Source: Nymphaea colorata (lineage: Eukaryota; Streptophyta; Magnoliopsida; Nymphaeales; Nymphaeaceae). Taken from it: a stretch of 64,000 bases of DNA. A model generated the notes under the pieces. That model did not search any database, was not told the origin of the DNA, and saw only the letters and a program-made list of their open reading frames with translations. The position numbers and the translations under genes are program-made. Position 1 is the first letter of the stretch. Each line of letters starts with the position of its first letter. The stretch spans positions 4,825,500-4,889,499 of the forward strand of contig NC_045149.1 in NCBI RefSeq assembly GCF_008831285.2, written 5' to 3'. Shown here in pieces: positions 3,501 through 62,910 of this stretch.

Positions 3501-4677
3501 CTTTATAAATGAACATCTTTGAATTCTCAAACTTTAAGCAGAAATCAAATTTGTCCAATCTTGATACAGAAATTAAGTTTCTACTATATGATGGAACAAA
3601 GAAAATATCATGAAGATCCAAAACAAAGCCAGTATGAAGCTTAATCTGGCATTCTCCTACAGCCTTCACATGTGAGCGCATTTTGTTTCCTGAGAAAATG
3701 CTTCTCTCAGGTAGTGTTGGTTTCCTTTTGCTTAGAAAGTCCTGTAAAGAATTGACAATATGCACAGTAGCACCTGAGTCAATCCACCTTATATTAATAG
3801 GAACATGTAACATATTACTTTCAAGTGAAACAAATGACATATTACCTTTCTTTTCTAACCAATTCTTGTACTTGATGCAGTTTGACTTCTTATGCCACTT
3901 TTTCTTGCAAAAGAAACACTTTATAGGGGCTAAGTTAGTCTGCGCAGTTTGAGAAGCAGTTTGACCTGTTGACTTCTTCTTGGCACTCATTTTCATTAAA
4001 CATTTCTTTATGCCAACTTTACCAGCCCCAGAGTGAGAAACCATATGTGCGTTTTGCAACTTCTCACCCTTTATTCTTTCCTCATCTTCAACACACTTAG
4101 ACATCAATTCATTGAATGTCCATTCAGTATTATGTGTGTTGTAATTGATCTTAAAAGGAGTATATTCAGCTGGTAAAGAGGTTAAAGTAAAGAATACCAA
4201 GAAAGATTCAGAAATAGTCAACTTCATGTCATTCAATTGATAAGTAATGTTCCTCATTTCTAACATATGCTGGCGAATGTTACCTCCTCCTTGATATTTC
4301 ATACATATTAACTTTGACATTAGGGTACTAGCTCTGGCTTTATGAGAGCTGACAAACTGAGCCTCAACTGCATCCAAGAACTCTCTCACCGTTCTACAAG
4401 GTGGGATAGCACCACGTATGTTCTTAGCGACCCTTGATTACAAAAGCAACAAACTTAGTCGGTTAGAACGTTCTCATTTGTCAAAGTACACTGTTTCATT
4501 ATGTGTACTTTGTGGTGTAAGAAGAGGTGGCTTAGGTCGCCTCAAAGCCATATCCAGATCCATATACCCCAATGTAAACACAACATTTTCTTTCCATTCA
4601 ACATAATTTGAATCATCAACTAAATGGATAGAATTTGAGCCATTAAAATAAATAGAACTAAGCACTGCAGATAACAA
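595..4677 (-). pseudogene. Copia gag-pol polyprotein, seven in-frame stops
   Basis: This is the remnant of a single Tnt1-type polyprotein that would have packaged, copied and integrated the element. In order on the minus strand are: the gag N-terminus (from 4677), gag with a CX2CX4HX4C zinc knuckle (C-F-F-C...H...C, near 3930), the protease motif DSGA (near 3780), the pre-integrase motif LWHRCLGH, the integrase core with FIDDYSR and NGVAERKNR, a reverse transcriptase with YVDD (near 1580), and RNase H with MEAEF and DMVANPLTKAL. Everything lies in one reading frame with no frameshift. It is broken by stops at 4474-4476, 4438-4440, 3289-3291, 1939-1941, 1129-1131, 988-990 and 973-975. It cannot make an intact protein. 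Confidence 0.92.
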
Positions 4678-14252: not shown

Positions 14253-14255
14253 TGA

Positions 14256-15808
14256 AGGTCATTGGTTTCAACAAAGTAGCTTCCAATTTTCTTGATATGA
14301 AACTAGGGGCCCATTGCAAGATCCATCACCAAGTCCCTGTCCCTCCTAGGGTTACTAAGAGGTTTTCAAAATATGCTTCACATACCTCTCAACTTCTGGT
14401 ACCTCTGAAGGATGATGATCTCCATATGCATGGTTCTTGGTCTTTCTACCTCTAATAAGTGCCTATAAGTAAGTGGTATTTTTATCATCCTCTACAACCC
14501 ATCATGTTTTAGCTTTCTATCTCCAAACTAGTTCTTTTTCATCTAGGGAGAACCTCATCTTTCTGCAGAGTACACCTTTTAATTCAGTTATGTTGAGTTC
14601 CTTAGGTTCCACCCTTCTTTACATTTTCTCCATTTTCTCCTTCAAGCTACATACGAAGGAACATATCCGAAGTCACTTGGTGAGGCTTTTCTTAGTCTAC
14701 TTCAACTGTTTCGAAACTCTTATCTCTTATAATGTAGCATGCAGTTACACCAATCTATCAAGCTTTTGTCATAGATCTACCACAACCTCTCCATTATTCT
14801 ACACATTCAAATAATTAAGCACATGAGAGGATCCCTGATTGATCCTCAAATGAGCAAAGGAATAGACAAGTGCACCATAAATTTCAAGGTGGATTATTCA
14901 AGCACCCAAAGATGCACTTACCACTCTACTTTTCCTATCAATTATGGTTGATCATGCTCAAACTTAGTTTGCACAACACTCACTCTTCTCTCCTTATGTT
15001 GCTCAACTAAGTAAAGTTTTTATTGGAGTCATCAATGATGGTAAAACTGCAATTAGCAACAAACAAAGAGACAATTCTACATGAAGAACGGTTAGGAGCT
15101 TATCTTGCATTGTCCCTCCTATCACATAACACATTGAAATAATCATTTAGAAAACATGGATTGCCATAGTTTTGAACCAAATACTTAAGATGCCTAAATT
15201 GCTCAGACATAGATTTCATGTCTCCTGACTCCTTGTTAATGTAGTTCAGAAAAAACCAGCAACTGTTGGAATCCATACCTCTAGCATGCACGCTCTTGGA
15301 ATCCTAGGCATAGATGATGCAAGAAATGCCATTTGCAGACTTTGTATTCAGTTCCCATGTAAAAAGATCATTATTGTTGTCTCTAGCCATTGAAGTTTTT
15401 TGTTGTTTACATTGAATTTATGTTGAAAATTTATTCTAGATTATATTCCTATAAGAGCAGACATAATTTCCTTCTAGAAGCCCTTCTTACTAAACCCTTA
15501 ACTTTCTAAGCACAGACTTCTATGGGAGAGGTAATCTCTCCCCCTGCACCTTTGAATAGCTCCTCACCCTTTGCAAAACTTTTTCCTTCTTGTGATCTTC
15601 CCTTCCTCAGGGTAAGCACAAGTCTCATTGCTCACATCATAAAGGGCGACCATTTCTTTTGCACTTTCGTGAAATCTAATTTTGTTATTGTGCATCTTGT
15701 TAAAGCCCCCAATTACTATTGATACTTAGTGCTTATGATCCTTGTTGATCCTTTTCCATACTCTTGACTAATAGATTTGCCCATTGTACTGTTGAGAATC
15801 TAGGTAGT
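14256..15808. other. No gene recognised
   Basis: This 1.5-kb stretch lies between a PIF-like element and a solo LTR. Open frames are short, have no recognised motif, and look like chance frames. Confidence 0.4.
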
Positions 15809-19640: not shown

Positions 19641-19789
19641 ATGGAGGGCATAGGGAGAGGCTGTGGCCTCTCTTAGAGGTCGTTTGATGGGCACAAGACA
19701 CACAGAACAGGACATGCGTGTTCTGTATAATTGATTTTGTTATCAAACGCTGTCCACGGTACACGATGGACAGAACGGACAATTAGACA

Positions 19790-19845
19790 GGGGTATAAAT
19801 TTAACCCCTGTTCTTCGCTGTTCCGAGCTAACCCTCGGAACAGCG
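19790..19845 (+). promoter_or_regulatory. X-end TATA box and 12-bp hairpin
   Basis: GGGTATAAATTT supplies a TATA box. About 20 bases further on, CGCTGTTCCGAG (19816-19827) and CTCGGAACAGCG (19834-19845) form a perfect 12-bp stem with a 6-base loop. Copy 2 keeps the same TATA and a 10-bp version of the same stem (62740-62765, minus strand) with nearly the same loop. Confidence 0.6.
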
Positions 19846-20049
19846 TGCCCTGCTCACCCCCGAGCGCATCCCTCCCGAGCGTCCCCCGAGTTTTCCCCTT
19901 TCTCCTCCGCCGACTCCCGAGTTTTCCCCCATTCTCTGCATCCGACTCTCCCTCTTCTCTTTGAGTCTCCCCTTTCCACTGCTTTACATGTCTCCCTTTC
20001 CACAGCTCTACGCCTTCCTCCCCTGCTTTACGACTTCATCTCGAGCGAT

Positions 20050-20185
20050 CACCTCATTTCTGCAAGTCCATAGTTGGGTGAACAACTTTTTTCAGGTGAT
20101 TTTTCTCCCGTTCTCTTGTTTTCTCTCTCGCTCGCTCATTCTTGTCTCTGATTTGCAGTTGATTTACAGTAACTAGGGTTGCCCC
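20050..20185 (+). other. X-end transcribed leader with intron-like signals
   Basis: The stretch from CTGCAAGTCCATAGTTGGG to CTAGGGTTGCCC is strongly similar to copy 2 (62200-62335, minus strand). In both copies TTTTTTCAG is followed by GTGA, a possible donor. A pyrimidine-rich tract then ends in GATTTRCAG, a possible acceptor, just before TAACTAGGG. I infer a 5' leader intron of about 60-75 bases. Confidence 0.45.
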
Positions 20186-21626
20186 GTAGGCCCTTCTTGC
20201 CTGCGGAAAGGAATTTTTTAAGTTATGTGCATCGAAAACATTTTTTGTGGCTGCGTATCCCTGTCTTTGTCTTTTTGTCTTCCTCTCGTTTTCTATCTTT
20301 CTCTGTCTTCCTTTCTGAAACACCCGAAAGGTCGCCCACAAGGTTGTTGATCGGCTTTGCCTTTCCTCTTTGCAGGTGTCTTCCGCACTTCCTCGCAATT
20401 TCGAATCTGTGGAATCCCGTTGCTGAGGAAGAGGTAAATGCGTTTCCCCTCTTTGCTTGCCCGTCTTCTCTCTTTCAACGGCTGAAATCTTATTTGAAAT
20501 GTAATTTATCTATGTGTGTGGTTATGTTTCATGAATGCCCCTCTATGGGGAAAAAGAAAGCAGACAAAAGTAAACCTCTAACTTTCAGCTGATTTTGATG
20601 GGAACCTTCGAGCGCTATTTTGTTCTAATCTTTTTTATTCGACTTAAGGCTTCTCAAGACGAGAAGCGTATGAATATCATGGCGAAGGCTTTTGCAGAAA
20701 ACGTTGCTCCAGTTAGAACAGAAAAATGCTACGTATCTTTCCATTTTGAATCTGTTATGTTTAACATGCATGGAAACTTACCTGAAGTTGTGGATATTTG
20801 TAGATGCAATTGAAAAGCTTTTTTGTGATAAATTTTAGTGCATTTGAAGGTATTAATACCAATCAAAAGGTTCTTTCTGCAGCCTATCGCAATCTGTCCT
20901 TTATTAAGTTGCTATTGAGCTTTCTTCTTGCGCTTCAAAGAATTGATATACTGTAAAGGCTTTTCATGCATTTTGAATCGCTTATTTTACATGTTCTGCC
21001 TGCTGTTCCTTCTGTTCATATCTTTGTAGTCCAAGCTTTGGTTTCCTCGCATCTTTGTTGTGCAATTTTTCATCGTATGCCCAATTTGCCAGATTTAAAG
21101 CACTTGACTTGGCTTGAGATTCTTTGTTCTTCAGAAAATCTGTGCCATTTTTCTTATCAAATTTGATTGCCTTCAAAGAATTTGTAGCCTCAGCTAGGCT
21201 ATTTATAGCCAAGTCAGAATATTTGACCTCTCTCTACCATCTTTCATCTAACCTTCTCATCTCTTTCTCTCTCCCTCCCTTTCTTCTGCTCATCAAAGAG
21301 ATGGCACTCTTGGGAGAGTTCATTACATGGGTCATGAAAGGCATGGAGTTTGGGAGAGAGAGACTCCTTATATCTGTCTCTCTCTTCTCCAAATCTGCTA
21401 TTAGTCTGTCTTGATCTGCCAAAGGTTTCGCTCTCATCTTTCTGATGCAGATCAAGGGGAGTCTTTGGTGGGAATGAAGCAGACCGGCAAGTCAAAAACG
21501 GGCATGGGGGACTTACTAATGGTCTTCTCCAGTTTCCACTGCTATTAGATTAGGACCAAGAACTGCAAGAAATAAGGAAGCATTGATGATCATGCGTCGG
21601 AAATGATCTTGTCCTTTGACGACAAC

Positions 21627-21631
<5 letters not shown>

Positions 21632-21711
<80 letters not shown>
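21632..21711. repeat. (TC)n(TA)n microsatellite
   Basis: A run of about 17 TC units is followed directly by about 23 TA units inside copy 1 of the PIF-like element. Confidence 0.95.
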
Positions 21712-21713
<2 letters not shown>

Positions 21714-21849
21714 CATTTCATGTCCTCAACCAGCGTAGACATATGGTTTTATTTGCATCTTTTTCAACAGTGGGGCTGCTATATATATGGTGACAACTTG
21801 ACAGTGATTTTTTTGAGACCACCATTCCTCATCACTGCATTAGTATGAT

Positions 21850-21921
21850 GGTGAACCACTGCATTAGTTCCTCATATTCATTTTTGGTGAACCACTGCAT
21901 TAGTTCCTCATATTCATTTTC
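21850..21921 (+). repeat. Two-unit 36-bp tandem repeat
   Basis: GGTGAACCACTGCATTAGTT and the CCTCATATTCATTTT after it occur twice in a row with a 36-base period. Confidence 0.85.
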
Positions 21922-22216
21922 TTAATCTGCCTCACTTGTGATTCAGCTGTAGTATAGGTAATAAAAAGATTGTCTTCCAGAAATTTGAATTTCATTAAAA
22001 GTTTTATTACTATCATGTAGTGCCATGTAGAAGGAAATGCTCAAAGTTTTGTACAAATATTATAATGTAGTTTGTACTGCTTGCAAATATTTCATCATTC
22101 GATCTTCCTCCATGTTTTTTATCATATATGATATTCGCACAATAAGTCAATTGTTTAAACGTATTTCATATAACTAAATTGCTTGATCTTATTGTACTTC
22201 TATTTGTTAAACTTAG

Positions 22217-22440
22217 ATGAGTAGTCACCATGACAAACTACAGTGGGAAGAAGATCAAGTGCAGTTTTTGTTTGACATGATGTCATTGTTTTAATTATAT
22301 TTGGTTATTTTAATATTTTATGATGATAATCTAATTATTTGTTTTGTCTTTTAAATTTCTAAAATGCAGGAACCAGACGGTGATGCATCTTCTAAAGTAT
22401 CACATGGATTTGATGAGAAGAGTAGTGTGCAGGACAGAAT
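22217..22440 (+). pseudogene. Possible MYB/SANT-like ORF remnant of the transposon
   Basis: An ATG at 22217 opens a 25-residue frame containing KLQWEEDQVQFLFDMM. The tryptophan and acidic-aromatic spacing resembles the MYB/SANT-like DNA-binding ORF that accompanies PIF/Harbinger transposases. A second piece after an AAATGCAG acceptor-like site (from 22370) reads EPDGDASSKVSHGFDEKSSV and stops at 22444. No more of the domain is visible. The assignment rests mainly on the host element type and is weak. Confidence 0.3.
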
Positions 22441-22979
22441 CTAGCAAGTTGTCATAGTTGTTTTTGTTTTATGACTTAGAACAATTGAATATTTTAAACA
22501 ATTTGTACGGGACCATGGTGTTTTAACATGTTAATACTTGTTAACATTGATAGAGAAAATTGTGAGATGTCCGTTTTTGTACTATGGCATTTAGGAAGAA
22601 TGATTCATTTTATGTTTAATTGAAAGTCTTTTCTGCTTGAACTGTTAAGATATTTGAAGAGATGTCATGTTATGGCTAAGAGACCCGACAGATCTCTTTT
22701 TTTCCATCACATTCTTGTGAAAGTGTCAACTGTTCTTCCAATTTTTCATAAAAGCTTTGTCACAACTGTGGTTGTCATTCTAAACCGGTTCCTGTGTATT
22801 TGATTAAATATATTCTTTTACTCCTTACAAGAAGAGTTCATTTGAAATACTTTCAGAACCGAGGTGAATGGCGCACGCTCTTACAATATTTGAACATGTT
22901 CATTCCAATGTGATGTGAATGCATTTCCCTTTGTTCACTGGCGTTTTGTATTGCTTTCTGATAAAAGGCTTTTAAGTTT

Positions 22980-23242
22980 TTTGTTCCTAAACAATGGAAG
23001 ACACAAACATCGGATAGAACAGATAGATCAGACAAGACGAAAACAAACGTCAGACATGACAGACAGAATAGACATAACAGACACACACGAAACAAACACT
23101 GGACATGAAGAACATAGTGTTTTGTTCCTAAAATCATCAAACGGTGGACAAGGAATACTATTGTCCATAAGGACAGGACAATGGTGTAATGGACAGGACG
23201 TCTTGTCTGTCCTGTTCCAGTGGACAACAATCAAACGACCTC
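22980..23242 (+). repeat. Y end: iterated GACAGA/ACAAAC motifs
   Basis: The last 260 bases contain many imperfect copies of motifs such as GACAGACAGAATAGACA and AACAAACG, ending in the inverted repeat ATCAAACGACCTC. The same arrangement occurs at 13900-14252 and, reversed, at 58070-58400. Repeated motifs near a transposon end are often transposase binding sites; here that role is inferred. Confidence 0.6.
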
Positions 23243-23565
23243 TTAGGAGTGATAAAATAAACCGCTCACCTTTAAATAAAACACAGGTCTCTTACTTTCT
23301 CTTTTTGCATTTGGGTTAAATATCCACAATTAAAAGTAAAACCCCAAAACCTTACTCGGATCGGGCTCAAGAGATTATCATAACAATCGTGTCCATGTTA
23401 TACCCGCAGACCCGGTTATTTTGGCGGGATCAGTCTCCTTCGCTTTCCGTCTCTTTGAACTCTTCCATTGACTGGTAGTTGGAGTTCCATCTTCTTACCG
23501 GTCATGGGAACTGCATTCTCCGACGATATCATTCCGCTCGTCCCCGCCTTAAATGGATCGTACCC

Positions 23566-38346: not shown

Positions 38347-38521
38347 TCGAGCGCATAACAAAGAAAAAGGGAACCTTGGTACATATGCGAACAACGTTTC
38401 TTCTGAGAATGGACTTTGTGTATGCATCCGCCTCAACAAATTCCCCACCAAGGTTTCAAGCAACTCCTGAAAATACCCGCTTGTTCCAGGCAAGAGACGG
38501 CAGACCAGGAAGGCGTGGAAC
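38347..38521 (-). pseudogene. LINE ORF1-like (DUF4283) gene, downstream piece
   Basis: On the minus strand this continues the frame interrupted at 47522. It begins with the target-site bases GTTCC and reads RLPGLPSLAWNKRVFSGVA, the usual end of the DUF4283 domain (W-x-R-L-P-G-L-P...W-N). An in-frame TGA follows at 38456-38458. Beyond it the frame stays open with a NLGGEFVEADAYTKS-like stretch, also family-like, so the gene was already broken or soon decayed. The right part of the same gene lies 9 kb away. Confidence 0.65.
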
Positions 38522-39699
38522 TGGTAGGACGCAAGCTGCGGGCACTGTAGCTGCCCAGAAAACCCAGACTGCGCTGCCGTCCTGACCTCCCAAGATCTCT
38601 TCTGGAATGTTTTCGGTGCCGAAGATACCAAGATTACAATTCAATGTCTACCCCACTGGGGACAAACCCAGTGAATCCCCAAGGGTAAAGGTACAAGAAG
38701 GGCTTTTCCCTGCCTATTCTAGGTCTGAACCTACTACACAGATGGGTTCAAGGCCTTACAACCGTTGCGTACAAGAATGCCCTCAGCCTCACTCCACAAA
38801 CCATTCATTCATGCCTATGCGTACAAACCATTCCCCAGCCCTAGGTTGGTTCACAGTTAAGGCTGAAAGCGAGTAAACCCACCCCATTCTATAGGGGGAG
38901 AGTGAGGCAAACCTCGCTGGGGCTAGCCCAGCGGCACGACCAAGGGCAGAAGACCAAGGCCCTCGGTATCCAGCAACGGACGGCGAATCAGGCGAGTACC
39001 AGCTTCCTTCACGCCCCCTGTCGCTCCTTGGAAACGCCCTCAAACACAAGCAGCAGGGCAATTACCAAGAACACAATTTACAGGAATAAAGGAGGCGAGA
39101 GTAGAGGAGCTTCACCAGACGGCAATAGGGACCCCAGGAGCGAACGTAAGGGGTGAGGCAGGCACCGATTAACGCCGGTGCACGCGCGCTGCCAAGCAGC
39201 CTTTGCTCCTAGCTCCTCACGGCTGGTACCTAGCGGCTCGTCGAGCAGCCCTCACAATAGAAAGCCAAGCAGTCAATGGGTAATCAACAAGCAAGAACAG
39301 TCCCAAGGAGTAGAGAAGCGTCACCGTGTGCGAATATAAACCCCGGGAGCAGACGTCAGTGGGGTGAGGCAAGCGCCGTTTAACGCCGGCGCAGGCGCGC
39401 TGCAGGGCAGCAAGTGCTCCACTTTCCACGGTCGAGACTGGCGTGCTCAGGTTCAAGGGCGTGGACAGGGGTCTAGCCGCTTCCGAAGGTCTCCATAAAT
39501 CATAGAACTTCCGATTGAGCCGAGTTTTGGACAGCAGCCCTGCCGGATAGTTATCCGAGGATGGGCCACGGTGGAGCTGGAAAGAACCCAGCATGCGAGT
39601 TCAAGCCCCTGGAGAAGCCCCTGGACTGTCACAGGCGACAGGCTGCTGGAAGACCCTCTGTCATTGAACAGGGCAGCAGACCTTCGAAAAATCCCAGAA

Positions 39700-40260
39700 A
39701 TTCACCCCGGCGTCAGATGGAGGTGAAACTTGGTAGGAAGGTCGCCAGGATAGATACAAAGGGACGCCCCAAGTTTGGGGGGCAAATGCCCACCCCAAGG
39801 CAGGGTCGTTGAAGGATTTAAGTTCGGAACTGTTACAGGCGGCAGAGGCTCAATTCAACTTCAGGCGCAGGACAGGGGAGCTCAACCTTGCAAAATTCAC
39901 CAAAAATCGCTCGAAGCTCGGATTGAGCTGAAATTTGGTGTGCAGCTGCCTGGGATACCTATCTGTAGACGCCCAAAAAGATGGGGGGCAAAAGCCCACC
40001 CTAAGGTCCAGTCGTTGTTCCCTCAAGCTGCTGGACTGATACCCGAAACAGGGGAGAAACGGCAGAACAGGGGAGCGACCTTCAGAAATTCACAGCAGCT
40101 CAATCCGGTGGCGGATGAGGCTGAAACTTGGTGGGCAGGAGGCCATGAGCATTACGTTGGGACGCCCAGAGTATGGGGGGCAACAGCCCACCCCAAGATC
40201 CAGTCGTTGGAAGGATTAGGATCTGGCCTGTTACAGAAAACAGAGCTCACGGCAGAGCAC
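39700..40260. repeat. Three-unit tandem repeat in the LTR (about 190-205 bp)
   Basis: Blocks like GCTGAAACTTGGTGGGCAGG, then GGGACGCCC, then TGGGGGGCAAAAGCCCACCC and CCAGTCGTTG occur three times. The GACGCCC blocks fall at about 39763, 39968 and 40161. The second LTR copy carries the same array at about 45097-45656. Confidence 0.75.
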
Positions 40261-40499
40261 TGAGCTTCTTCTTCCTCACGGCTCAACCCCGCAACCAGTT
40301 CCAGCCTTCAGTTCGTGCAGTCCACGGGCAGAAACGAGGATCAGCAACCAGAGAAAGAGGAAGGAGAAGATCCTTCACCCGATTTGGGGTTTTCCCCCAA
40401 ATAGCTATCGCAAACAGGGGAACCAGCTGGGAATCAGGCGGAGTTCACAGGGAGCGCCACCAGCGAGGTCTCGTTTCCGTCGGAGGGTCTCTTGGCAGC

Positions 40500-41150
40500 G
40501 GTGGATGATCGAATCCTCCCCAGAATTGATTCATGGTGTCGCCCAGGGCTGAAGAAGGCAACGGCGTGGTCCCCTGGATCAGATAGGAACGCCTCAGCTA
40601 TCTGTTCGGGTGGAGGAGACGCTGAAAGGGGCGGACATCCGCCAGTGATCTAAGAATTCCGGCAGGAGGCTTCTCAGTCGCTTGGAGCTGTCGGATCTTC
40701 TTCAGTGAGGTCCCACGGCATCGCCCAGAGGTGAGGAAGGCAATGGCGAGGTCCTTTGGTTCAGATGGAAGAGCATCAGCTGCCTGTCGGGTGGAGGGGG
40801 CGTTGAAAGGGGCGGACAGCAGCCTGAGAGATCAGAAATCCGTCGGGTGGGGTTTTCAGCCTCTTTGAGCTGTCGGGTCCTGCTTAGAGGTGAGCCATAG
40901 CGTCGCCCAGAGGAGCAGAAGCCAACGGCGATGGTCCCTGGTTCAGATGGAAGGGATTCAGCAGGCTGGATAGGAAGATGAGGCATGAACAGGGGCGGAC
41001 AGCAGCCCGCGTGCGTCTGACTTCATTGGGGTTTCCTTGGCAGCTGTGGGCAGCCAGATCCTTCTCAGGGATGATCCACGGCGTCGCCAAGAGGGGCAGA
41101 AGCCACGGCGTTGTCCCTTGGTGACGCTGAGCAGATCTGCAGGCTGGTTA
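40500..41150. repeat. Four-unit 182-bp tandem repeat in the LTR
   Basis: A unit containing GCGTCGCCCAGAGG, GAAGGCAACGGCG, TGGTTCAGATGGAA and GGGGCGGACAGCAGCC recurs with GCRTCGCC at 40536, 40718, 40900 and 41081. The spacing is 181-182 bases. The same array is in the other LTR (about 45896-46546). Confidence 0.8.
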
Positions 41151-41754
41151 GGAGGAGGTGATGCGGTGGAGGCTGCGGGTGAAGCAGCAGCATTTAGCTG
41201 CAGTGGAGGGCGACAGGAGAAGCTTGGACCTCACGGGGGAAATCAGAAGAAAGCATCAGAGGTAAGGGATGCGTGAGAAAGATAGAAGAAGCTGAGGATC
41301 GAGGAGAGGAAGAGGCGTCAGGAGGTAGGGACGCGAGAGAGAGAAGCGGGGGAGACAACCCTCGCCATGGCGAGCGTGAGCCCTCGGTTGGGAGGAGAGA
41401 GAAAATCGCGAGAGAGGAGAGAGAAACCAGGTTCTTCATAAAACATGTATATCCTGTACAGTGAGGTTCATGCGTTTTAACGCATGACTGAGCCGGTTCG
41501 CTCAGCCGAACCGGTTCCATCTGGCCGAACCGATTCACAGTCCAATAGGTTACAACAATAAAAGATTTAAGTAAAAATAAGTAAAAATATGTACAACACG
41601 AAAGGAAAACCGTTTCACACGGTCACCCAAGTCCATCAACGCCCGTTCCAAGGGCGGGGTTTGTCGAGACGCTCGAGCTGGGTGTGAACCCACTCCACCC
41701 TGACTCAGGAAGGGTGGTCTTCATCACGAGCATGGCCGCGTCTAAGCCGTCCTC

Positions 41755-43842
41755 CTACAGCATCCGTCCATCGCGCCGTGTGCCAACTAGTTCCTTGGTC
41801 CCGCTGGGTCCGGGTGCGTCATTGTCCCTGTCACACGAAGGGTTAGCCATATACAATTCGAAACACGGGTCGGTCATCGGCTCTTTCCTTGCTCGACGGG
41901 TGTGGACGGTGTCTGCCCTGGTCGTAGACCCGACGACGCTAGCTGTCCCGCGTCTATCGGCACTACCTTCGGCACTAGGTGGCCAACAACGGCAGCCCTC
42001 GGTGTAGGTCTGGCCGGTCCTGGACGGCACTCTGTTGCCTCCTTCGCCCCCGACGGGCTCAACGGCAGTAGCAGTGGCCTCGCCCACGTCCTGTCTCGAC
42101 GGACTCCTAGACAGGCACGTATCAGATCCACCCCGCTGAGTTGGAGCTTGTCCCCAAGCTCGTACGTAAGAAAACCTGTGGGCGATCTGGTCGATCTCCT
42201 CAACCCCTCCACTTGAGGTACCCTGGAAACGTCTCTCTTTTCCTTCCACAAGATGGACGGTATGGACTGTCTCGCTCCCTAAGTCACGCACCCAACAAGC
42301 TCGTCTGGGGTGAGGTCCATAGTCCCTTGCCAAAGAGGCTAACAATGACTCTCGCGGTCTGTGGAGCTCGTCGGGCCATGTACTGGTGTGGGAAGCTTTT
42401 CCACGATCATAAACTTGCCTCTTACGTGGCTTCGCTCTAGCCTCTGGCTGCTCTTCCAACAATGATAGGGGGAACGAGATGGAAGAGCTATCCCGCTCGC
42501 CTTTGGTGGCCAAAACAAAAAGCGATGGTAATTGATCTGCCCATATCGCTGTACGCTTCCGCCATGCTTCCACTGCGCCACTCTGATACACGTAATTATA
42601 CTCAGGGTCTTCAAGACGAAGCATGGCATAGGTGACTTGGTGCTCTGGTGGTACCCCTAAGCACAGAGAGTACCTCTCAACTTTAACATTCCAGTCACGC
42701 GGGTTTGTCTCGGTAAACATAGGGCATTCAATTCCCAATGTAGGCACCTGGTCAACATCATTACCTGCCGTAGGAGGTACATCTGTAGCCACTGAGATAA
42801 CCCCAAGTACAACATCGGCCCCCTCAATAGGTAAGACCAACAAATCAACCACAAATGACTCCCCTTGCATTACTAAATTCACTGCTCTACAAACATAACT
42901 GCAAGTGAGAAGGGCACCGTTACCAACTACAACAGTGAGAGGTCCGTGCGGTGTCAACGTGTAGCCCACCTTATGAGCAATCTCAGTCCTGATATAGTTA
43001 GGAGTGGCCCCTGAATCCAGAAGAACAACCACACCTGTAGACTGAATGGAACCTACCCTGCGCATAGCCCTGGGGCGGCTGGGGTTGGTAACTGTGTGGC
43101 ACTCACCACTAGGCGACCCTGGCTGCTCTAGGGCAGCTTCTTCTTCAACCTCATCAAATTCCATTTCAGCGTAGCTCATTTGAGACGGTTGATCTGTACT
43201 GACATAGTCGGTCACCTTAGGTGGCTTAGAAAGTAATTCCTCCCCATGTGGTGCTTGAATAGGTTTCACATTAGCCTGCTGCGTTTCAAAAAGCACCTGA
43301 TGTATAGAAGTCTCAGAATTACCCCGTGGCTGGGTAAAGGAAGTGCTGGGGACCTCAACGTCCACTGTGGGCTGACTGAAAGGTGGCCTGGGCTCAGAAG
43401 CACTGAGGAACCTTCCCGCAAGTACACTACAGCCTTCTCTAGTCGGCGTGGAGAGTAACCCCTTCCCCTCTGTCGACCTGACTGACTGAGTGGCCTTCTG
43501 CTGCATCTGATCGCGCGTCCTGTGCATAGCAGATTCAGTCACTCCACCTTGCTGTACATACGAGGCGGTCGGTACGTCATGGCTAGCTGTGGCCTGGGGC
43601 AAAGGTGGGGCACCAAGAGGAGTCTCAAGCACTCCCCTCTCAAGGCTGTCAAGGCGCTCCACCATTCTGCGATTGTCATCTCGCATCTGGCGGATGTCCT
43701 CTCGCATCAGAATCATCATATCCTTGAGGGATTTGAGAGAAACAGGCGTGACTTCCTTCCCTGTAACAACAGCTACCCCCTCATCTGTAACCTCTTGGGA
43801 CTCAACATCTGTAGCAACCTGTCTATCCTTTCGTGGTGCCAT
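41755..43842 (-). CDS. Gag/protease-like protein with rearranged domain order
   Basis: The frame is open from 43854, and the ATG at 43842 (MAPRKDRQ) is the likelier start, giving about 695 residues. Residues 35-75 form a coiled coil typical of gypsy gag N-termini. Near residue 275 is a retropepsin: DSGATPNYI, then VGNGALL, then LPIEGADVVLGV. After it comes a gag-like stretch (NPRDWNVKVERYSL, GVPPEHQVTYAMLRLEDPE), which in ordinary gypsy elements precedes the protease. No zinc knuckle was found. The frame crosses into the 3' LTR at 42124 and uses its first 370 bases. It is intact, but whether it is translated is unknown. It may be a chance survivor of a shuffled gag-pro region. Confidence 0.75.
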   Translation of the reverse strand: MAPRKDRQVATDVESQEVTDEGVAVVTGKEVTPVSLKSLKDMMILMREDIRQMRDDNRRMVERLDSLERGVLETPLGAPPLPQATASHDVPTASYVQQGGVTESAMHRTRDQMQQKATQSVRSTEGKGLLSTPTREGCSVLAGRFLSASEPRPPFSQPTVDVEVPSTSFTQPRGNSETSIHQVLFETQQANVKPIQAPHGEELLSKPPKVTDYVSTDQPSQMSYAEMEFDEVEEEAALEQPGSPSGECHTVTNPSRPRAMRRVGSIQSTGVVVLLDSGATPNYIRTEIAHKVGYTLTPHGPLTVVVGNGALLTCSYVCRAVNLVMQGESFVVDLLVLPIEGADVVLGVISVATDVPPTAGNDVDQVPTLGIECPMFTETNPRDWNVKVERYSLCLGVPPEHQVTYAMLRLEDPEYNYVYQSGAVEAWRKRTAIWADQLPSLFVLATKGERDSSSISFPLSLLEEQPEARAKPRKRQVYDRGKASHTSTWPDELHRPRESLLASLARDYGPHPRRACWVRDLGSETVHTVHLVEGKERRFQGTSSGGVEEIDQIAHRFSYVRAWGQAPTQRGGSDTCLSRSPSRQDVGEATATAVEPVGGEGGNRVPSRTGQTYTEGCRCWPPSAEGSADRRGTASVVGSTTRADTVHTRRARKEPMTDPCFELYMANPSCDRDNDAPGPSGTKELVGTRRDGRML
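42125..42137 (-). other. Polypurine tract of the young gypsy-type element
   Basis: On the minus strand AGCGGGGTGGATC lies directly before the TGATACG start of the 3' LTR. This is the expected place for the plus-strand primer. Confidence 0.55.
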
Positions 43843-43904
43843 CTTGATAAACACAAACAGAATAATCTTCTGAAAAGAAAACCGAAAACTGACTCCTGAA
43901 GACA

Positions 43905-43918
43905 GCTCTGATACCTAC
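43905..43918 (-). other. Primer binding site (tRNA-Met type)
   Basis: Minus-strand GTAGGTATCAGAGC follows the LTR end CCTACCA. It matches the common plant tRNA-iMet primer site TGGTATCAGAGC except at its first base. Confidence 0.7.
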
Positions 43919-46900
43919 TGGTAGGACGCAAGCTGCGGGCACTGTAGCTGCCCAGAAAACCCAGACTGCGCTGCCGTCCTGACCTCCCAAGATCTCTTCT
44001 GGAATGTTTTCGGTGCCGAAGATACCAAGATTACAATTCAATGTCTACCTCACTGGGGACAAACCCAGTGAATCCCCAAGGGTAAAGGTACAAGAAGGGC
44101 TTTTCCCTGCCTATTCTAGGTCTGAACCTACTACACAGATGGGTTCAAGGCCTTACAACCGTTGCGTACAAGAATGCCCTCAACCTCACTCCACAAACCA
44201 TTCATTCATGCCTATGCGTACAAACCATTCCCCAGCCCTAGGTTGGTTCACAGTTAAGGCTGAAAGCGAGTAAACCCACCCCGTTCTATAGGGGGAGAGT
44301 GAGGCAAACCTCGCTGGGGCTAGCCCAGCGGCACGACCAAGGGCAGAAGACCAAGGCCCTCGGTATCCAGCAACGGACGGCGAATCAGGCGAGTACCAGC
44401 TTCCTTCACGCCCCCTGTCGCTCCTTGGAAACGCCCTCAAACACAAGCAGCAGGGCAATTACCAAGAACACAATTTACAGGAATAAAGGAGGCGAGAGTA
44501 GAGGAGCTTCACCAGACGGCAATAGGGACCCCAGGAGCGAACGTAAGGGGTGAGGCAGGCACCGATTAACGCCGGTGCACGCGCGCTGCCAAGCAGCCTT
44601 TGCTCCTAGCTCCTCACGGCTGGTACCTAGCGGCTCGTCGAGCAGCCCTCACAATAGAAAGCCAAGCAGTCAATGGGTAATCAACAAGCAAGAACAGTCC
44701 CAAGGAGTAGAGAAGCGTCACCGTGTGCGAATATAAACCCCGGGAGCAGACGTCAGTGGGGTGAGGCAAGCGCCGTTTAACGCCGGCGCAGGCGCGCTGC
44801 AGGGCAGCAAGTGCTCCACTTTCCACGGTCGAGACTGGCGTGCTCAGGTTCAAGGGCGTGGACAGGGGTCTAGCCGCTTCCGAAGGTCTCCATAAATCAT
44901 AGAACTTCCGATTGAGCCGAGTTTTGGACAGCAGCCCTGCCGGATAGTTATCCGAGGATGGGCCACGGTGGAGCTGGAAAGAACCCAGCATGCGAGTTCA
45001 AGCCCCTGGAGAAGCCCCTGGACTGTCACAGGCGACAGGCTGCTGGAAGACCCTCTGTCATTGAACAGGGCAGCAGACCTTCGAAAAATCCCAGAAATTC
45101 ACCCCGGCGTCGGATGGAGGTGAAACTTGGTAGGAAGGTCGCCAGGATAGATACAAAGGGACGCCCCAAGTTTGGGGGGCAAATGCCCACCCCAAGGCAG
45201 GGTCGTTGAAGGATTTAAGTTCGGAACTGTTACAGGCGGCAGAGGCTCAGTTCAACTTCAGGCGCAGGACAGGGGAGCTCAACCTTGCAAAATTCACCAA
45301 AAATCGCTCGAAGCTCGGATTGAGCTGAAATTTGGTGTGCAGCTGCCTGGGATACCTATCTGTAGACGCTCAAAAGATGGGGGGCAAAAGCCCACCCTAA
45401 GGTCCAGTCGTTGTTCCCTCAAGCTGCTGGACTGATACCCGAAACAGGGGAGAAACGGCAGAACAGGGGAGCGACCTTCAGAAATTCACAGCAGCTCAAT
45501 CCGGTGGCGGATGAGGCTGAAACTTGGTGGGCAGGAGGCCATGAGCATTACGTTGGGACGCCCAGAGTATGGGGGGCAACAGCCCACCCCAAGATCCAGT
45601 CGTTGGAAGGATTAGGATCTGGCCTGTTACAGAAAACAGAGCTCACGGCAGAACACTGAGCTTCTTCTTCCTCACGGCTCAACCCCGCAACCAGTTCCAG
45701 CCTTCAGTTCGTGCAGTCCACGGGCAGAAACGAGGATCAGCAACCAGAGAAAGAGGAAGGAGAAGATCCTTCACCCGATTTGGGGTTTTCCCCCAAATAG
45801 CTATCGCAAACAGGGGAACCAGCTGGGAATCAGGCGGAGTTCACAGGGAGCGCCACCAGCGAGGTCTCGTTTCCGTCGGAGGGTCTCTTGGCAGCGGTGG
45901 ATGATCGAATCCTCCCCAGAACTGATTCATGGTGTCGCCCAGGGCTGAAGAAGGCAACGGCGTGGTCCCCTGGATCAAATAGGAACGCCTCAGCTATCTG
46001 TTCGGGTGGAGGAGACGCTGAAAGGGGCGGACATCCGCCAGTGATCTAAGAATTCTGGCAGGAGGCTTCTCAGTCGCTTGGAGCTGTCGGATCTTCTTCA
46101 GTGAGGTCCCACGGCATCGCCCAGAGGTGAGGAAGGCAATGGCGAGGTCCTTTGGTTCAGATGGAAGAGCATCAGCTGCCTGTCGGGTGGAGGGGGCGTT
46201 GAAAGGGGCGGACAGCAGCCTGAGAGATCAGAAATCCGTCGGGTGGGGTTTTCAGCCTCTTTGAGCTGTCGGGTCCTGCTTAGAGGTGAGCCATAGCGTC
46301 GCCCAGAGGAGCAGAAGCCAACGGCGATGGTCCCTGGTTCAGATGGAAGGGATTCAGCAGGCTGGATAGGAAGATGAGGCATGAACAGGGGCGGACAGCA
46401 GCCCGCGTGCGTCTGACTTCATTGGGGTTTCCTTGGCAGCTGTGGGCAGCCAGATCCTTCTCAGGGATGATCCACGGCGTCGCCAAGAGGGGCAGAAGCC
46501 ACGGCGTTGTCCCTTGGTGACGCTGAGCAGATCTGCAGGCTGGTTAGGAGGAGGTGATGCGGTGGAGGCTGCGGGTGAAGCAGCAGCATTTAGCTGCAGT
46601 GGAGGGCGACAGGAGAAGCTTGGACCTCACGGGGGAAATCAGAAGAAAGCATCGGAGGTAAGGGATGCGTGAGAAAGATAGAAGAAGCTGAGGATCGAGG
46701 AGAGGAAGAGGCGTCAGGAGGTAGGGACGCGAGAGAGAGAAGCGGGGGAGACAACCCTCGCCATGGCGAGCGTGAGCCCTCAGTTGGGAGGAGAGAGAAA
46801 ATCACGAGAGAGGAGAGAGAAACCAGGTTCTTCATAAAACATGTATATCCTGTACAGTGAGGTTCATGCGTTTTAACGCATGACTGAGCCGGTTCGCTCA

Positions 46901-47520
46901 GCCGAACCGGTTCCATCTGGCCGAACCGATTCACAGTCCAATAGGTTACAACAATAAAAGATTTAAGTAAAAATAAGTAAAAATATGTACAACACGAAAG
47001 GAAAACCGTTTCGCACGGTCACCCAAGTCCATCAACGCCCGTTCCAAGGGCGGGGTTAGTCGAGACGCTCGAGCTGGGTGTGAACCCACTCCACCCTGAC
47101 TCAGGAAGGGTGGTCTTCATCACGAGCATGGCCGCGTCTGAGCCGTCCTCCTACAGCATCCGTCCATCGCGCCGTGTGCCAACTAGTTCCTTGGTCCCGC
47201 TGGGTCCGGGTGCGTCATTGTCCCTGTCACACGAAGGGTTAGCCATATACAATTCGAAACACGGGTCGGTCATCGGCTCTTTCCTTGCTCGACGGGTGTG
47301 GACGGTGTCTGCCCTGGTCGTAGACCCGACGACGCTAGCTGTCCCGCGTCTATCGGCACTACCTTCGGCACTAGGTGGCCAACAACGGCAGCCCTCGGTG
47401 TAGGTCTGGCCGGTCCTGGACGGCACTCTGTTGCCTCCTTCGCCCCCGACGGGCTCAACGGCAGTAGCAGTGGCCTCGCCCACGTCCTGTCTCGACGGAC
47501 TCCTAGACAGGCACGTATCA
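43919..47520 (-). repeat. 5' LTR of the young gypsy-type element (3.6 kb)
   Basis: This is the direct repeat of 38522-42124 and differs by one missing base near 45370 and about 16 substitutions counted by eye. On the minus strand it starts TGATACG, next to the target duplication GGAAC. A promoter is expected here, but no convincing TATA box was placed. Confidence 0.92.
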
Positions 47521-47521
47521 G

Positions 47522-48902: not shown

Positions 48903-48973
48903 GCGCATCTGGTGTTGTGTTATCATAGTACCCTCCCACGGTACTGACCGGGGTTCGATTCCCCGGATGCGCA
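48903..48973 (+). tRNA. tRNA-Gly(CCC)
   Basis: A 71-base cloverleaf can be folded: the acceptor arms GCGCATC and GATGCGC pair fully with A as discriminator. The anticodon stem GTACC/GGTAC closes the loop CTCCCAC (anticodon CCC). The T arm CCGGG-TTCGATT-CCCGG is intact. The D arm reads GGTGTTGTGTTATCA where plant tRNA-Gly genes usually have GGTGTAGTGGTATCA, so the GG of the D loop is changed and the A box is weakened. A TTTT run about 10 bases downstream can end Pol III transcription. It is either a divergent gene or a pseudogene in its first stages. Confidence 0.75.
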
Positions 48974-57951: not shown

Positions 57952-58793
57952 TAATCTATCAGAGTGAATGTCATTTTGATAAGTGAAAGGTCAAGGTCGG
58001 CGCTTGAAAGGGTAGCATTGAAATTCGTCTATTGCCATGTTTGAGTCTGAAGTTCATTTGTATGCTTCAGAGGTCGTTTGATTGCTATCCATCGGGACAT
58101 GACAGGCAGGACGTCCTGTCCATTACAATACTGTCTTGTCCTCATGAACAATGATGTTACTTATCCACCGTTTGATGATTTAAAAACAGAACATTACATT
58201 CTTCTTGTCTGGCGTTTGTTTCACATATGTCTATTTTGTCTGTCCTGTCTAACGTTTGTTTCTGTCATCTTCGATCTGTCCGTTCTGTCTAATGTTTGCG
58301 TCTTCCATGATTAGTTATGTCTGTCCTATTTGATGTTTGTTTATGTTCTATTCGAGCTGTCTGTTTTATTCGGTGTTTATGCCTTCTATAATTAGTTTTG
58401 GCTAAACATAGAACAAAGTTCAAATATAAAGAAACTTTCTGCCAAATAACAAAAAAAAAAGCTCAACGTTAAGATCAATGGAAGTGGTTGTTGGCTGACT
58501 GCAAGGTCAGAAGCTCAACAAATTTAAGAAAAAGGAAAATTTTCTTCTAATAATGAATAAGGCTGCTGGAAGGTTAATGATCAAGCAAAGTGGCTAAACA
58601 TAAGGTCACTAGTTTAACACAATTGAGCAGAGAAATCTAAAACAAGCACGAGTTAACAGCTATAGACTAAACCCAGATGAACAAGCACTGAACTTTTAAT
58701 GGGAAAAAAATAGCCATTATCAAAACATATGCTATTGAACAAAAGAATAAACTTAAGGTCTAAAAAGGAGAATCCAAATGCATTACAAAATCA

Positions 58794-59024
58794 TCATTTT
58801 TTCCTGAAGTTGATGCGAGCTTCTTTAGCCACAACATCTAAGCCTTTCTTCTTGATCGTCTTCAATGCTTTTGTGGACAACCTCAATTTAAAGTACCTCT
58901 TCCCAGCTTCCCACCACACTTTCTTGCACTGCAAATTTACAAATTACAATTTCTTTGTCTTGTGATTTGAGAAGGAGACCATTGGCACAGTTTGCCTTTT
59001 TGCCTGTAAAAGGGCATAAATGAC
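58794..59024 (-). pseudogene. RPL28: Plastid ribosomal protein L28, exon 2, broken
   Basis: After the acceptor TTTTAG the minus strand reads HLCPFTGKKANCAN. A 2-base loss shifts the frame, and the next frame gives VSFSNHKTKKL, then a stop, then [20 protein letters not shown] and [20 protein letters not shown], ending RINFRKK and a TGA at 58794-58796. This is the mature part of the nuclear-encoded plastid 50S protein L28, in normal order and length (about 77 residues). The frameshift and the stop make it a pseudogene. It pairs in phase with a first exon at 62071-62170. Confidence 0.8.
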
Positions 59025-59984
59025 CTAAAAGAAAAGTTCTAGCGGGTTAATGACTTTACATATTGTTTCGGATGCTGCAAACGGCTCAAAATGATGCATA
59101 CATACATCCATGTTTCTACTATGCAGAAATTATCACACGTGCTTATACCCCAACTGATGCAAGTAAAAATGCGTAACTTGAAACCGTTCTATCATTTACT
59201 CAAAAAACTGATTTAAATTGCCTCAGACTGAAAAATCAACAGAGACAAGGTTGAAAAATTTCCTTTTTACATCTTCGAACTTTGAATTCTTAAGTCAGTG
59301 AAGAACTGAAGATGCTTGAAGCCTTGACCTCTCCAAGATTCAAGATAAAAGTAAGAAAGTGTTTGACATGTGGAAACACTTCCACCAAATAATGCATATC
59401 CAAGTCAGCTCCTCGAGGTCTACTGATGAGCTAAGACCAAGTGTGACCAGACACAGTGAGCCACAAAATTCGTCTTGTGATTGAGAAGGAGACCATTGGC
59501 ACAGTTTGCCTTTTTGCTTGTAAAAGGGCATACATGACCTAAAAGAAAAGAGCTAGCGGGTTAATGACTTTACAGATTGTTTCAGATGCTGCAAACGGCT
59601 CAAAATGATGCATACATACATCCCCGTTTCTACTATGAAGAAATTATCACACGTGCTTATACCCCAACTGATGCAAGTAAAAAACACGTAACTTGAAACC
59701 GTTCTATCATTTACTCAAAAAACTGATTTAAATTACCTCAGACTGAAAAATCAACAGAGACAATGTTGTGAAATTTCCTTTTTACATCTTCAAACTTTGA
59801 ATTCTTAAGTCAGTGAAGAACTGAAGATGCTTGAAGCCTTGACCTCTCCAAGATTCAGGATAAAAGTAAGAAAGTGTTTGACATGTGAAAACACTTCCAC
59901 CAAATAATGCATATCCAAGTCAGCTCATCGAGGTCTACAGATGAGCTAAGACGAAGTGTGACCAGATACAGTGAGCCACAAAAT
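58957..59984 (-). repeat. 515-bp tandem duplication inside copy 2
   Basis: 58957-59471 and 59472-59984 are nearly identical. The unit holds the first half of RPL28 exon 2, its acceptor and the intron sequence before it. A second, partial exon 2 is therefore present at about 59472-59540. Both copies share the 2-base loss in exon 2, so that damage came before the duplication. Confidence 0.9.
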
Positions 59985-62070
59985 CCCACTCATAATTATA
60001 GGCAGATAAAACAATTAGTCTTCCCCTCTAATTAATTTCAGGGGTTATAACTGAAGTACTATTCCTAATGAGAATATGAAAGGAAGCTGCGAATGGTAAC
60101 TTAATCCAAATGCAAATTTTAAAACCTAAAAGTTCATACCAAGATCAACAACATTAGTTCCATGTTCTATAAACAAATATGATAATGCTAAACCTCGAGG
60201 CTGCTGGAACAACCTTACATGCCTAATAAGAAGAAACCAACTCTAGCTGCACGGTGGGTGGGTGGATTCGCGAAATAGGATCTCGGTCAGTTTTGGACTA
60301 GATCGTCACACAAACTATTGCAATCAATGACGTCATTAATTATACTACAAAGACGGTGAGAAACCAAAACAACACTAAATAAGAAAATGTACTATTATCG
60401 GATATTCCTACAAATAAACCAAACTTCTAAGCCAATTAAGAATCTCGTAAACAAAAATGCCTCCCTAACCAAAAGAACACTCGCATCAATGAAGTCCAAT
60501 CGGTCCCGATATAAGAAATTAGGGCAGGAAATTTGTATTTCAGACAATCACATCAAAGAAGGAAACCTTACTTCGGAATGCTATTTGTAGAATATTTAAG
60601 AGAAATGTGACTTATAAGACGTATGGTGAAGAGGCAAGGTACTCCCCTCTATTAACTATCCAAGTTGAACCTGGGAGAAGGCACCATATAGAGTAGAGGA
60701 ACATAGCGGCACAGTTAAATTTTCTTTAATATTTCACAAAATAGCGCTTTGCTTAGGCCTAGAATGTACCAAGACTATATATATTTTATCTGTTGCTGAT
60801 ACGTGGAAATCATGCTAGTTATGTTCTTCAAGATTGTCATGTTGTTTATAAGTAGCCGTCAAGTTTTATTTTCAAAATTTCATATTTTTTATATTCTTTT
60901 AATCCCAATTAATCATTTAAATCCTCTTCTACGTTATACTACTTCAATACAGAATTATGCAACATTAGTGGAAAAGAAGTAATAAGTACAAGTACAAGTT
61001 TGCAACATATAATGTTATAAGTAAATAAAAAAAAACCTTTACGTGATTCTACAAATCATCATTCAAATATAGCAATTCTCTATAATCTTTGCAAGCCAAT
61101 TGTCTCCCATTTGAATCTTAAGTCTAATATCCAATTGGCTCACAATAATCTTTGACGATGAAAACCACATGGTCAGAGCATCAAACTTTCACCATCACAG
61201 GGAAGATAGTTTTGCATACAGTCAGGGTAGGGAGAGAAAAATTGACCTTGAGTAAAGAAGGTCGACAGTGCTAGGCAATGCTCTGACAGAAGTGAAAACA
61301 TCACCGTTAGAAAAATTGACCTTGTGCAAATGAAATTTCACTTCTTCGACAACTACAATTATGTCCGTTGCTATAGCTCTAATGCCACAAACCTGCTTGA
61401 TTTATCAAAATTAAATACAGAAAGGGAACCATTTTAATAAAATTAGTCAACCAGGAGAAGACCATTTTTTCTGTCAATACAAAGAAACAATTTAAACTTT
61501 ACAAAGAAGGTCAAATCTATATTTAAACATGAAAAGATGGCTTGAGGTACACATCATGCACAAGCAATTTCAAGGGATTGTGCTGCAAATTGCCAAAGCC
61601 ATCATGTGATTACAAATAATATGCTTGGACAATTTCTAAAACATGCAAAAACAACATGCTGCAATGTTACCGAGTGCATTAGTGGGATCAGTTAAACCAT
61701 CTAGATTGTAAGAACTCCTAAACACAAAGAAACCATCGTACAAAAAAAGCCCGTTAATATATTTTATAAAAACTATCCAGAATCTCAACTAAACCAAGCA
61801 GTTCATGAAGAGAGTTCTTATGCCTCTCAATGGTTCAAAATTGGATTGCCAAGCAGCTGACTAGCCATTTACTGGAACAAGAATTCTAAAGATCATGTTC
61901 CCACGAGCAGGATGCAATCAATATGCACATACAAGCATCTAAGTTCTAACCATTTCTAGGTCTCAGCTTGAGAATATGAGATATCAAAATGTTAATACAA
62001 CATATGTCATGCTAAGACCTTTGCTTCACAACGCCTACAATGGAGAAGCAGCTGTAAGACATGGACATAC

Positions 62071-62170
62071 CTGTGGAACGGGTAGATTGCTTGATTGGTA
62101 GGGCGAGGAGAAGCTTCAATCCACTGCATGTTTGAAGGAGGCGAGAGGTTGAGGGAGGGTGAAGAAGCAT
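62071..62170 (-). pseudogene. RPL28: RPL28-like exon 1 (plastid transit peptide)
   Basis: The ATG at 62170-62168 opens 33 codons plus one base, ending at a CAG/GTATGT donor. The peptide (MLLHPPSTSRLLQTCSGLKL and on) is rich in S, T, L and basic residues and has no acidic residue, as expected of a chloroplast transit peptide. Its phase matches exon 2 at 59024 exactly. The assignment as exon 1 is inferred from phase, composition and position. Confidence 0.5.
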
Positions 62171-62212
62171 GAGGGGCAAGGAAGACAAGAAGGGGCTACA
62201 GGGCGAGGGCAA

Positions 62213-62335
62213 AAACCCTAGTTACTGTAAATCAGAGACAAGGAGGGAGCGAGAGAGAAAACAAGAGAACAGGAGAAAAAAGAGAACCAGACCTCACCTG
62301 AAAAAAGCTATTCACCCAACGATGGACTTGCAGCA
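62213..62335 (-). promoter_or_regulatory. X-end leader of copy 2 with telo-box
   Basis: AAACCCTA (62213-62220), a telo-box common near the start of plant ribosomal-protein genes, lies in a leader homologous to copy 1 (20050-20185). CAG/GTGAGG near 62300 and GATTTACAG near 62230 (minus strand) could bound a leader intron. Confidence 0.4.
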
Positions 62336-62739
62336 ACGAGGTGATGGCACGACCCGTCGTCGTCTTTCTCTCCTTCTTCCAACTCAAGAGATTGATGAAC
62401 AACAAAGACCAAAGGGGGTAGATAACTCCCTCAATGACTCCGACGGGCCTGAAACCATAAACAGAAAGGGCTAGGGCTCGGGAGACAAAGGAGAAGGAGA
62501 GAAACGGGAAGGGCTAGGGCAGCTTGACGGTGAAGACGGGGGTAGAGACGAAGGAGAAAGGTAGCACGGGGGCCGAGAAGGAGGAGAAGGAGAGAAAGAC
62601 GATGGAGACATGCGCAGAGATGGAGGAAAAAGGCAGTTCAGGAGCGGAGATGGAGGAGGAGAGAAAGGCAACGGGTCGAGGGATGGGGGTCGGGGTCAGG
62701 GTCAGGGGCTCAAGGTTGGGGGTGGGAGGGATGTTCTGC

Positions 62740-62800
62740 CTGTTCCGAGAGTTAGCTCGGAACAGAGTGGAACAAAAATAGAATTTATACTCTTGTCCAA
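62740..62800 (-). promoter_or_regulatory. X-end hairpin and TATA box of copy 2
   Basis: CTGTTCCGAG (62740-62749) and CTCGGAACAG (62756-62765) form a 10-bp stem with a 6-base loop. On the minus strand it lies just downstream of GAGTATAAATTC (about 62784-62795). The layout is the same as at 19790-19845. Confidence 0.6.
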
Positions 62801-62910
62801 TTGTCCGTCATGTCCAGCCTGTCCTGTGTCCAGCGTTTGATGAAAAAATAAACTAAACAGGACACACGTGTCCTGTTCCGCGTGTCTTGTGGCCATCAAA
62901 CGACCTCTAA

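Follow-up and report, generated by a model that had tools for sequence, protein, structure and literature searches.

A probable non-autonomous PIF/Harbinger-family element of Nymphaea colorata carrying a fragment of the plastid ribosomal protein gene RPL28

When a transposon contains a stretch resembling the gene for a plastid ribosomal protein, does it carry a gene or only a piece of one, and was the piece taken up by that copy? The question is raised by a locus in a 64,000-nt stretch of the Nymphaea colorata genome (assembly GCF_008831285.2, contig NC_045149.1, positions 4,825,500 to 4,889,499), here called the window. The original prediction, made from the letters alone, placed at 58070-62907 a transposon that had captured the gene for plastid ribosomal protein L28 (RPL28), with a transit-peptide exon, an exon for the mature protein and the intron between them. 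Our analysis indicates that the locus is very probably a Pack-type non-autonomous element of the PIF/Harbinger family, one that inherited its RPL28 fragment from an earlier element.

The element and its family

An inverted-ended transposon is present, and its exact limits are 58069-62908 (C12:4883568-4888407, 4840 bp). The 14-bp terminal inverted repeat (TIR) AGAGGTCGTTTGAT is perfect at both ends (58069-58082 and 62895-62908), and no internal TIR site was found within 58069-62908 at up to three mismatches. The ends may also be parsed as a 13-bp TIR, GAGGTCGTTTGAT, with 3-bp flanks TCA and TAA, one mismatch off the PIF-type TAA duplication. The strict TIR pattern TWAGAGGTCGTTTGATNGC occurs 69 times per strand (69 + 69) in the 407.8-Mb genome and the reversed pattern not at all (0 + 0). 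The element and its ends were delimited as follows (strand is given where assigned):

58069-62908, whole non-autonomous element with perfect TIRs
58069-58402, plus strand, left transposon end (3' by the direction of the leader) up to the RPL28 capture border, common to other family members
62467-62908, minus strand, right transposon end (5', called X) and leader, common to transposase-bearing relatives

Target duplications of 3 bp with the consensus TWA were found around other members of the family: two elements on C3 (C3a, C3:13003665-13007501, TTA/TTA; C3b, C3:13222529-13227820, TAA/TAA), a complete element on C7 (C7:9156242-9160174, TAA/TAA), a second copy in the window at 19675-23243 (TTA/TTA) and a relative on C10 (L019, C10:1239514-1246602, TAA/TAA). 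The C10 relative has the same TIRs (local positions 115 and 7203), and between them lie a frame matching DDE_Tnp_4 (PF13359, E 3.2e-18, profile 59-158) and a Myb/SANT-like frame matching Myb_DNA-bind_3 (PF12776, E 2.1e-7, profile 56-96). A whole-genome search for DDE_Tnp_4 gave 150 matches, a lower bound as the best 150 of 307 candidates were scored, and none of the matches listed lies inside the window element. No stop-to-stop frame longer than 103 codons was found in the window element, which therefore reads as a non-autonomous member of the PIF/Harbinger family. This classification is supported, as far as sequence can tell, by the identical ends of the transposase-bearing relative.

Two further stretches of the window resemble the family. 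The copy at 19675-23243 has the same TIRs; its left-end third aligns with transposase-bearing relatives and other DNA lies mid-element, so that it looks like a deletion derivative. At 14076-14257, a stretch 75% similar to the left transposon end contains a one-mismatch TIR at 14240-14253.

Origin and state of the RPL28 fragment

Seven matches to the profile PF00830 were found in the genome: one on C8, two on C3 (13.0-13.3 Mb), the window copy and three that cover profile positions 20-60 only. One of the latter three was fetched (L003) and shows no DNA similarity to the element. The parental RPL28 gene, which the original prediction had proposed to seek in the host genome, was found on a separate contig at C8:23418223-23419303, matched by the element piecewise with ~90% identity; with this open donor gene on C8, the window locus is not the only RPL28 gene of the genome. 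The donor has two open exons and a 5.75-kb intron, with splice sites picked by reading frame and not by RNA. Exon 1 (193 nt, encoding MAASAVFSPPSLF...LPIVA) begins ~5.9 kb upstream of exon 2, which ends in LRKK and a stop codon. The spliced protein matches PF00830, and its residues 18-140 also align with a chloroplast L28 chain of the PDB (E 1.1e-47). No family TIR was found near the donor at up to two mismatches in a 9.9-kb stretch. That the C8 gene might itself be a derivative of the element was rejected on account of its open exons, its chloroplast L28 match and this lack of a family TIR.

Exon 2 of the donor was captured together with ~460 bp of the intron next to it and ~390 bp of 3' flank, ~1.1 kb in all. 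Donor and element are 90.6% identical over 890 aligned columns. The border with the transposon end is sharp and lies at 58402/58403: matches to family members stop at q336, donor similarity begins at q335 (58403), and the bases TA are common to both. Because intron sequence was carried along, the capture was from genomic DNA and not from mRNA, as originally proposed. The proposal that the intron had been kept holds for the ~460 bp; the remainder consists of a 515-bp tandem duplication, an insertion of ~300 bp absent from the donor (inferred; within 58954-60097) and pieces like other loci. A stretch of ~58 bp of donor intron is missing from the captured portion. The parts of this half of the element are:

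58403-59282, minus strand, RPL28 donor DNA (3' flank, exon 2, adjoining intron), 90.6% to C8:23418223-23419107
58794-59024, minus strand, copy of RPL28 exon 2, plastid bL28c type, with AG acceptor, broken by a 2-bp deletion and an internal TAA
58954-59984, 515-bp tandem duplication within the captured intron, copies 95% alike, absent from the donor
60098-60236, minus strand, last donor-intron piece, ~90% to C8:23419103-23419303

The L28-coding exon had thus been correctly located. An intact frame with a plastid transit peptide was not found in the window element, and the leader joined to the window exon would read 14 L28-like residues before the frameshift. The L28 exons of C3a and C3b are open over 231 nt, and the lesions of the window exon are not present in them. 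Compared with the donor they carry 9 and 8 nonsynonymous and 3 and 3 synonymous changes, with ratios of nonsynonymous to synonymous substitution rates (dN/dS) of 0.74 and 0.65 (12 and 11 changes); between C3a and C3b there are 3 nonsynonymous and 0 synonymous changes. At such small counts, the open C3 exons appear to be under no clear constraint. The RPL28 fragment of the window is most likely a decaying passenger.

Was the fragment taken up by this copy, as had been supposed? In C3a and C3b, which lie ~220 kb apart, the same left end continues into RPL28 (shared stretches C3:13003665-13004743 and C3:13225331-13227820), and the end-RPL28 junction is common to three elements in the genome. Identity between the C3 elements is 97.6% along 3.4 kb and 93% in the initial 490 bp; C3b also contains an additional ~1.4 kb, located between positions 466 and 1899 of that element. 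The three copies in elements share departures from the donor sequence, as read from the alignment without a count and with C3b compared over part of the RPL28 piece. Since the end similarity of the C3 copies continues into RPL28, the capture predates the window copy; capture by the window copy, for which this very pattern had been named as the refuting case, was rejected. The donor match of the C3 copies stops at the equivalent of 59138 and that of the window copy extends into further donor intron. Because the window copy holds more donor intron, simple loss from a C3-type copy does not account for it.

The leader and the mosaic right half

The segment 62071-62170 had been taken for a transit-peptide exon. 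It begins at an ATG and reaches a GTATGT donor after 100 nt, in a phase equal to that of the true donor exon 1; the claim of matching phase is literally correct, and one frame in three would agree by chance. Window positions 62060-62180 match 25 places in the genome, 5 of them with a listed DDE_Tnp_4 match within 7 kb. Twenty-four of the 25 copies were examined (the window copy and 23 loci; C10:11635358 was left out). At the proposed start codon, these copies read ATG (6), ACG (16), GCG (1) or AAG (1). The homologous splice donor is GT in 15/24 copies, GC in 1/24 and lacking in 8/24, five of these eight having a DDE_Tnp_4 match within 7 kb. The length from start to donor differs modulo 3 in 4 of the 16 copies with a donor-like site, and 8 of these 16 are complete elements with both TIRs at up to one mismatch (window, L008, L023-L027, L029). 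The leader gave only chance-level matches in the C8 donor locus (best of 11: 18 nt, E 0.11), and the true RPL28 exon 1 has no counterpart in the window element. Given this and the different exon 1 of the donor, the assignment of 62071-62170 to RPL28 exon 1 was rejected. Judged from its copies, the segment is a family leader and not a conserved coding exon; what looks like a start codon and a transit peptide, and also the matching phase, most likely arose by chance. The notion of a leader running into a start codon likewise failed, as the start is not conserved and the fused frame is broken, and so did that of a captured gene with its own transit exon, the leader being unrelated to RPL28 exon 1.

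The remaining cargo resembles several separate loci. A genome search with the element scored the best 40 of 510 candidates; more copies are therefore bound to exist. The segments identified are:

60234-60588, segment joined to the RPL28 piece, 93% to C3:21318823-21319187
60583-61312, two segments, ~81% to blocks within C1:22485618-22487801, with ~1.4 kb of that locus skipped between them
61309-61563, segment 91-93% similar to five loci
61554-62031, segment 88% similar to C4:26874495-26874980, with an F-box frame ~1.4 kb from that locus
62034-62362, segment 89% similar to C10:8065484-8065812
61319-62908, right half, 91% to the complete C7 element
62071-62170, minus strand, leader segment of the transposon family with a splice donor at its end, not part of RPL28, with matches at 25 places and only chance-level ones in the donor locus

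The C7 element has other DNA in place of the window's RPL28, and since it shares the right half without RPL28, the pairing of leader and RPL28 is seen only in the window copy. L28 adjoins the leader nowhere else: the C3 elements are absent from the 25 leader places and have no match to the leader stretch. By these similarities, the window element is a mosaic of an RPL28 half like the C3 elements and a leader half like the C7 element. At several cargo junctions, a few bases are common to both partners (no comparison with chance). No frame was recognised by eye at the C3:21318823 and C1:22487254 loci, where no Pfam search was made. The cargo of C3a is also a patchwork, with at least 34 matches listed, two of them C3a itself and C3b; among the matches listed are C11:9285580-9286106 (96%), C10:11251533-11252023 (95%), C3:18255265-18255804 (88%) and C8:22606182-22606588 (88%).

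Assembly of the element and comparison with known systems

These data argue strongly for Pack-type capture of genomic RPL28 DNA within a PIF/Harbinger-like family, as the original prediction had it: the donor is independent, the border sharp, intron is included, and a transposase-bearing relative has the same ends. An ancestral element took up the ~1.1 kb of RPL28 DNA (exon 2, 3' flank and part of the intron), which meets the left end at 58402/58403. In the window element, the RPL28 piece is joined to segments like other loci and to the leader-bearing right half known from the C7 element. The joining may have occurred when a gap left by excision was repaired, through template switching or end joining. 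The element may have been mobilised in trans by the family transposase and may be transcribed in the sense direction from the X end. Two points weigh against this account. The target duplication of the window element itself is imperfect (TCA/TAA). The C3 exons are open and their dN/dS is a little under 1, a result that weak constraint or young age could explain no less than neutrality.

A different explanation takes the X end as a portable gene start, made of leader and splice donor, for which terminal exons taken up in sense near the other end would supply acceptor, stop and 3' end, giving chimeric transcripts. The splice donor found in 16/24 leader copies, and absent from the type beside transposases, counts in its favour, but the common occurrence of the donor may reflect descent alone, and only half of the donor-bearing copies are complete elements with both TIRs shown. 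Two gene cargos were identified, and no more: RPL28 and FLZ, both last exons, in sense and beside the left end. The FLZ zinc finger (PF04570) was recognised in a frame of element L023 (E 3.5e-7), and the FLZ donor locus at C8:18558545 (L038) has both exons as judged by eye. The FLZ last exon was found at eight places (L023, L024, L026, L039-L043), beside the left end and, in elements with known ends, in sense orientation relative to the X end; both TIRs were shown for 4/8 (L023, L024, L026, L039). L017, with only the part upstream of the exon, was excluded from exon counts. In 7/8 copies, the exon is 95-97% identical to the donor and the flanks 80-92%, L041 being broken, and dN is below dS in 8/8 copy-donor comparisons. 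The comparison with the donor looks constrained and would fit constraint, but it also counts changes on the branch of the donor. When only the eight copies are compared, no selection on the exon was seen, exon and flanks varying alike (25/153 against 110/736 variable sites, p 0.71); without the broken L041, variable sites fall 8, 3 and 5 times on codon positions 1, 2 and 3. Protein-level selection on the captured exons is not supported, the RPL28 counts being small and without clear constraint and the FLZ exon varying like its flanks. Moreover, both RPL28 copies with an open frame, C3a and C3b, have no match to the leader stretch. A portable gene start of this kind is unlikely on present evidence; given the two cargos it is worth testing, not more, and if it were true, cargo swaps would make chimeric genes.

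Somewhat less probable still is the tandem-insertion model proposed for Pack-TYPE elements including PIF (PMC8903248), in which neighbouring insertions fuse and the intervening DNA is mobilised. The distance of ~220 kb between the two RPL28 elements on C3 would be in its favour, but the window element has no internal TIR at up to three mismatches, on C8 the closest strict TIR among those listed lies ~3.6 Mb away from the donor, and pieces like several separate loci abut with no end remnant noticed. As for an element that took RPL28 complete with transit exon and intron and continues to produce plastid-targeted L28, the shared strand, matching phase and plausible donor and acceptor of leader and exon are far outweighed by a leader at chance level in the donor locus, where the true exon 1 is different, by its 25 places of which only the window copy adjoins L28, by an ATG in just 6/24 copies and by the broken frame, so that this reading is highly improbable.

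Pack-type capture thus stays the preferred reading. In this case of fragment capture in a PIF/Harbinger family, the donor, the border, the sibling copies and the relatives with transposase are all available in one genome, and the family lends itself to tests of how cargo is gained and swapped. For annotation it is a warning that a leader, an ATG and a matching phase can mimic a captured plastid-protein gene by accident.

Elsewhere in the window, direct repeats of 3.6 kb (38520-42125 and 43917-47521) are 99.5% identical, and a 719-codon open frame (41758-43914, minus strand) reaches from one of them into the gap between the two; the pair looks like a young element of the long terminal repeat type or a recent duplication. 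Three long frames at 1132-4437 (minus strand) have translations that look Copia-like by eye, no family search having been made, and a tRNA-Gly (CCC) is predicted at 48903-48973.

Pack-MULEs are mosaics of fragments of several genes, introns included, often with no sign of function, and have Mutator-like ends and longer target duplications; the present elements differ from them in their 14-bp TIRs and 3-bp duplications. Also comparable are the Pack-PIF elements of maize and rice, described together with the tandem-insertion model (PLoS Genet 2022, PMC8903248): these are, in that description, non-autonomous PIF/Harbinger elements, mostly with TTA/TAA duplications, with host gene fragments common to several copies. 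In the maize example worked out there, elements average a short 535 bp and hold a gene piece of 163 bp, whereas the transposase-free complete elements found here are 3.2-5.3 kb long, hold pieces like several loci and have a leader common to transposase-bearing relatives. The Pifvine-3 transduplications of grapevine (PLoS One 2008, PMC2528002) are also PIF elements with genomic DNA including exons and introns, sometimes common to multiple copies; as presented there, the extra DNA forms a long 5' region, whereas here the two gene pieces adjoin the 3' end of transposase-free elements. Gene capture in plants is treated generally in a 2026 review (PMC13317346). With Pack-PIF elements already in print, the RPL28 carrier of N. 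colorata is real, ordinary in kind and well resolved.

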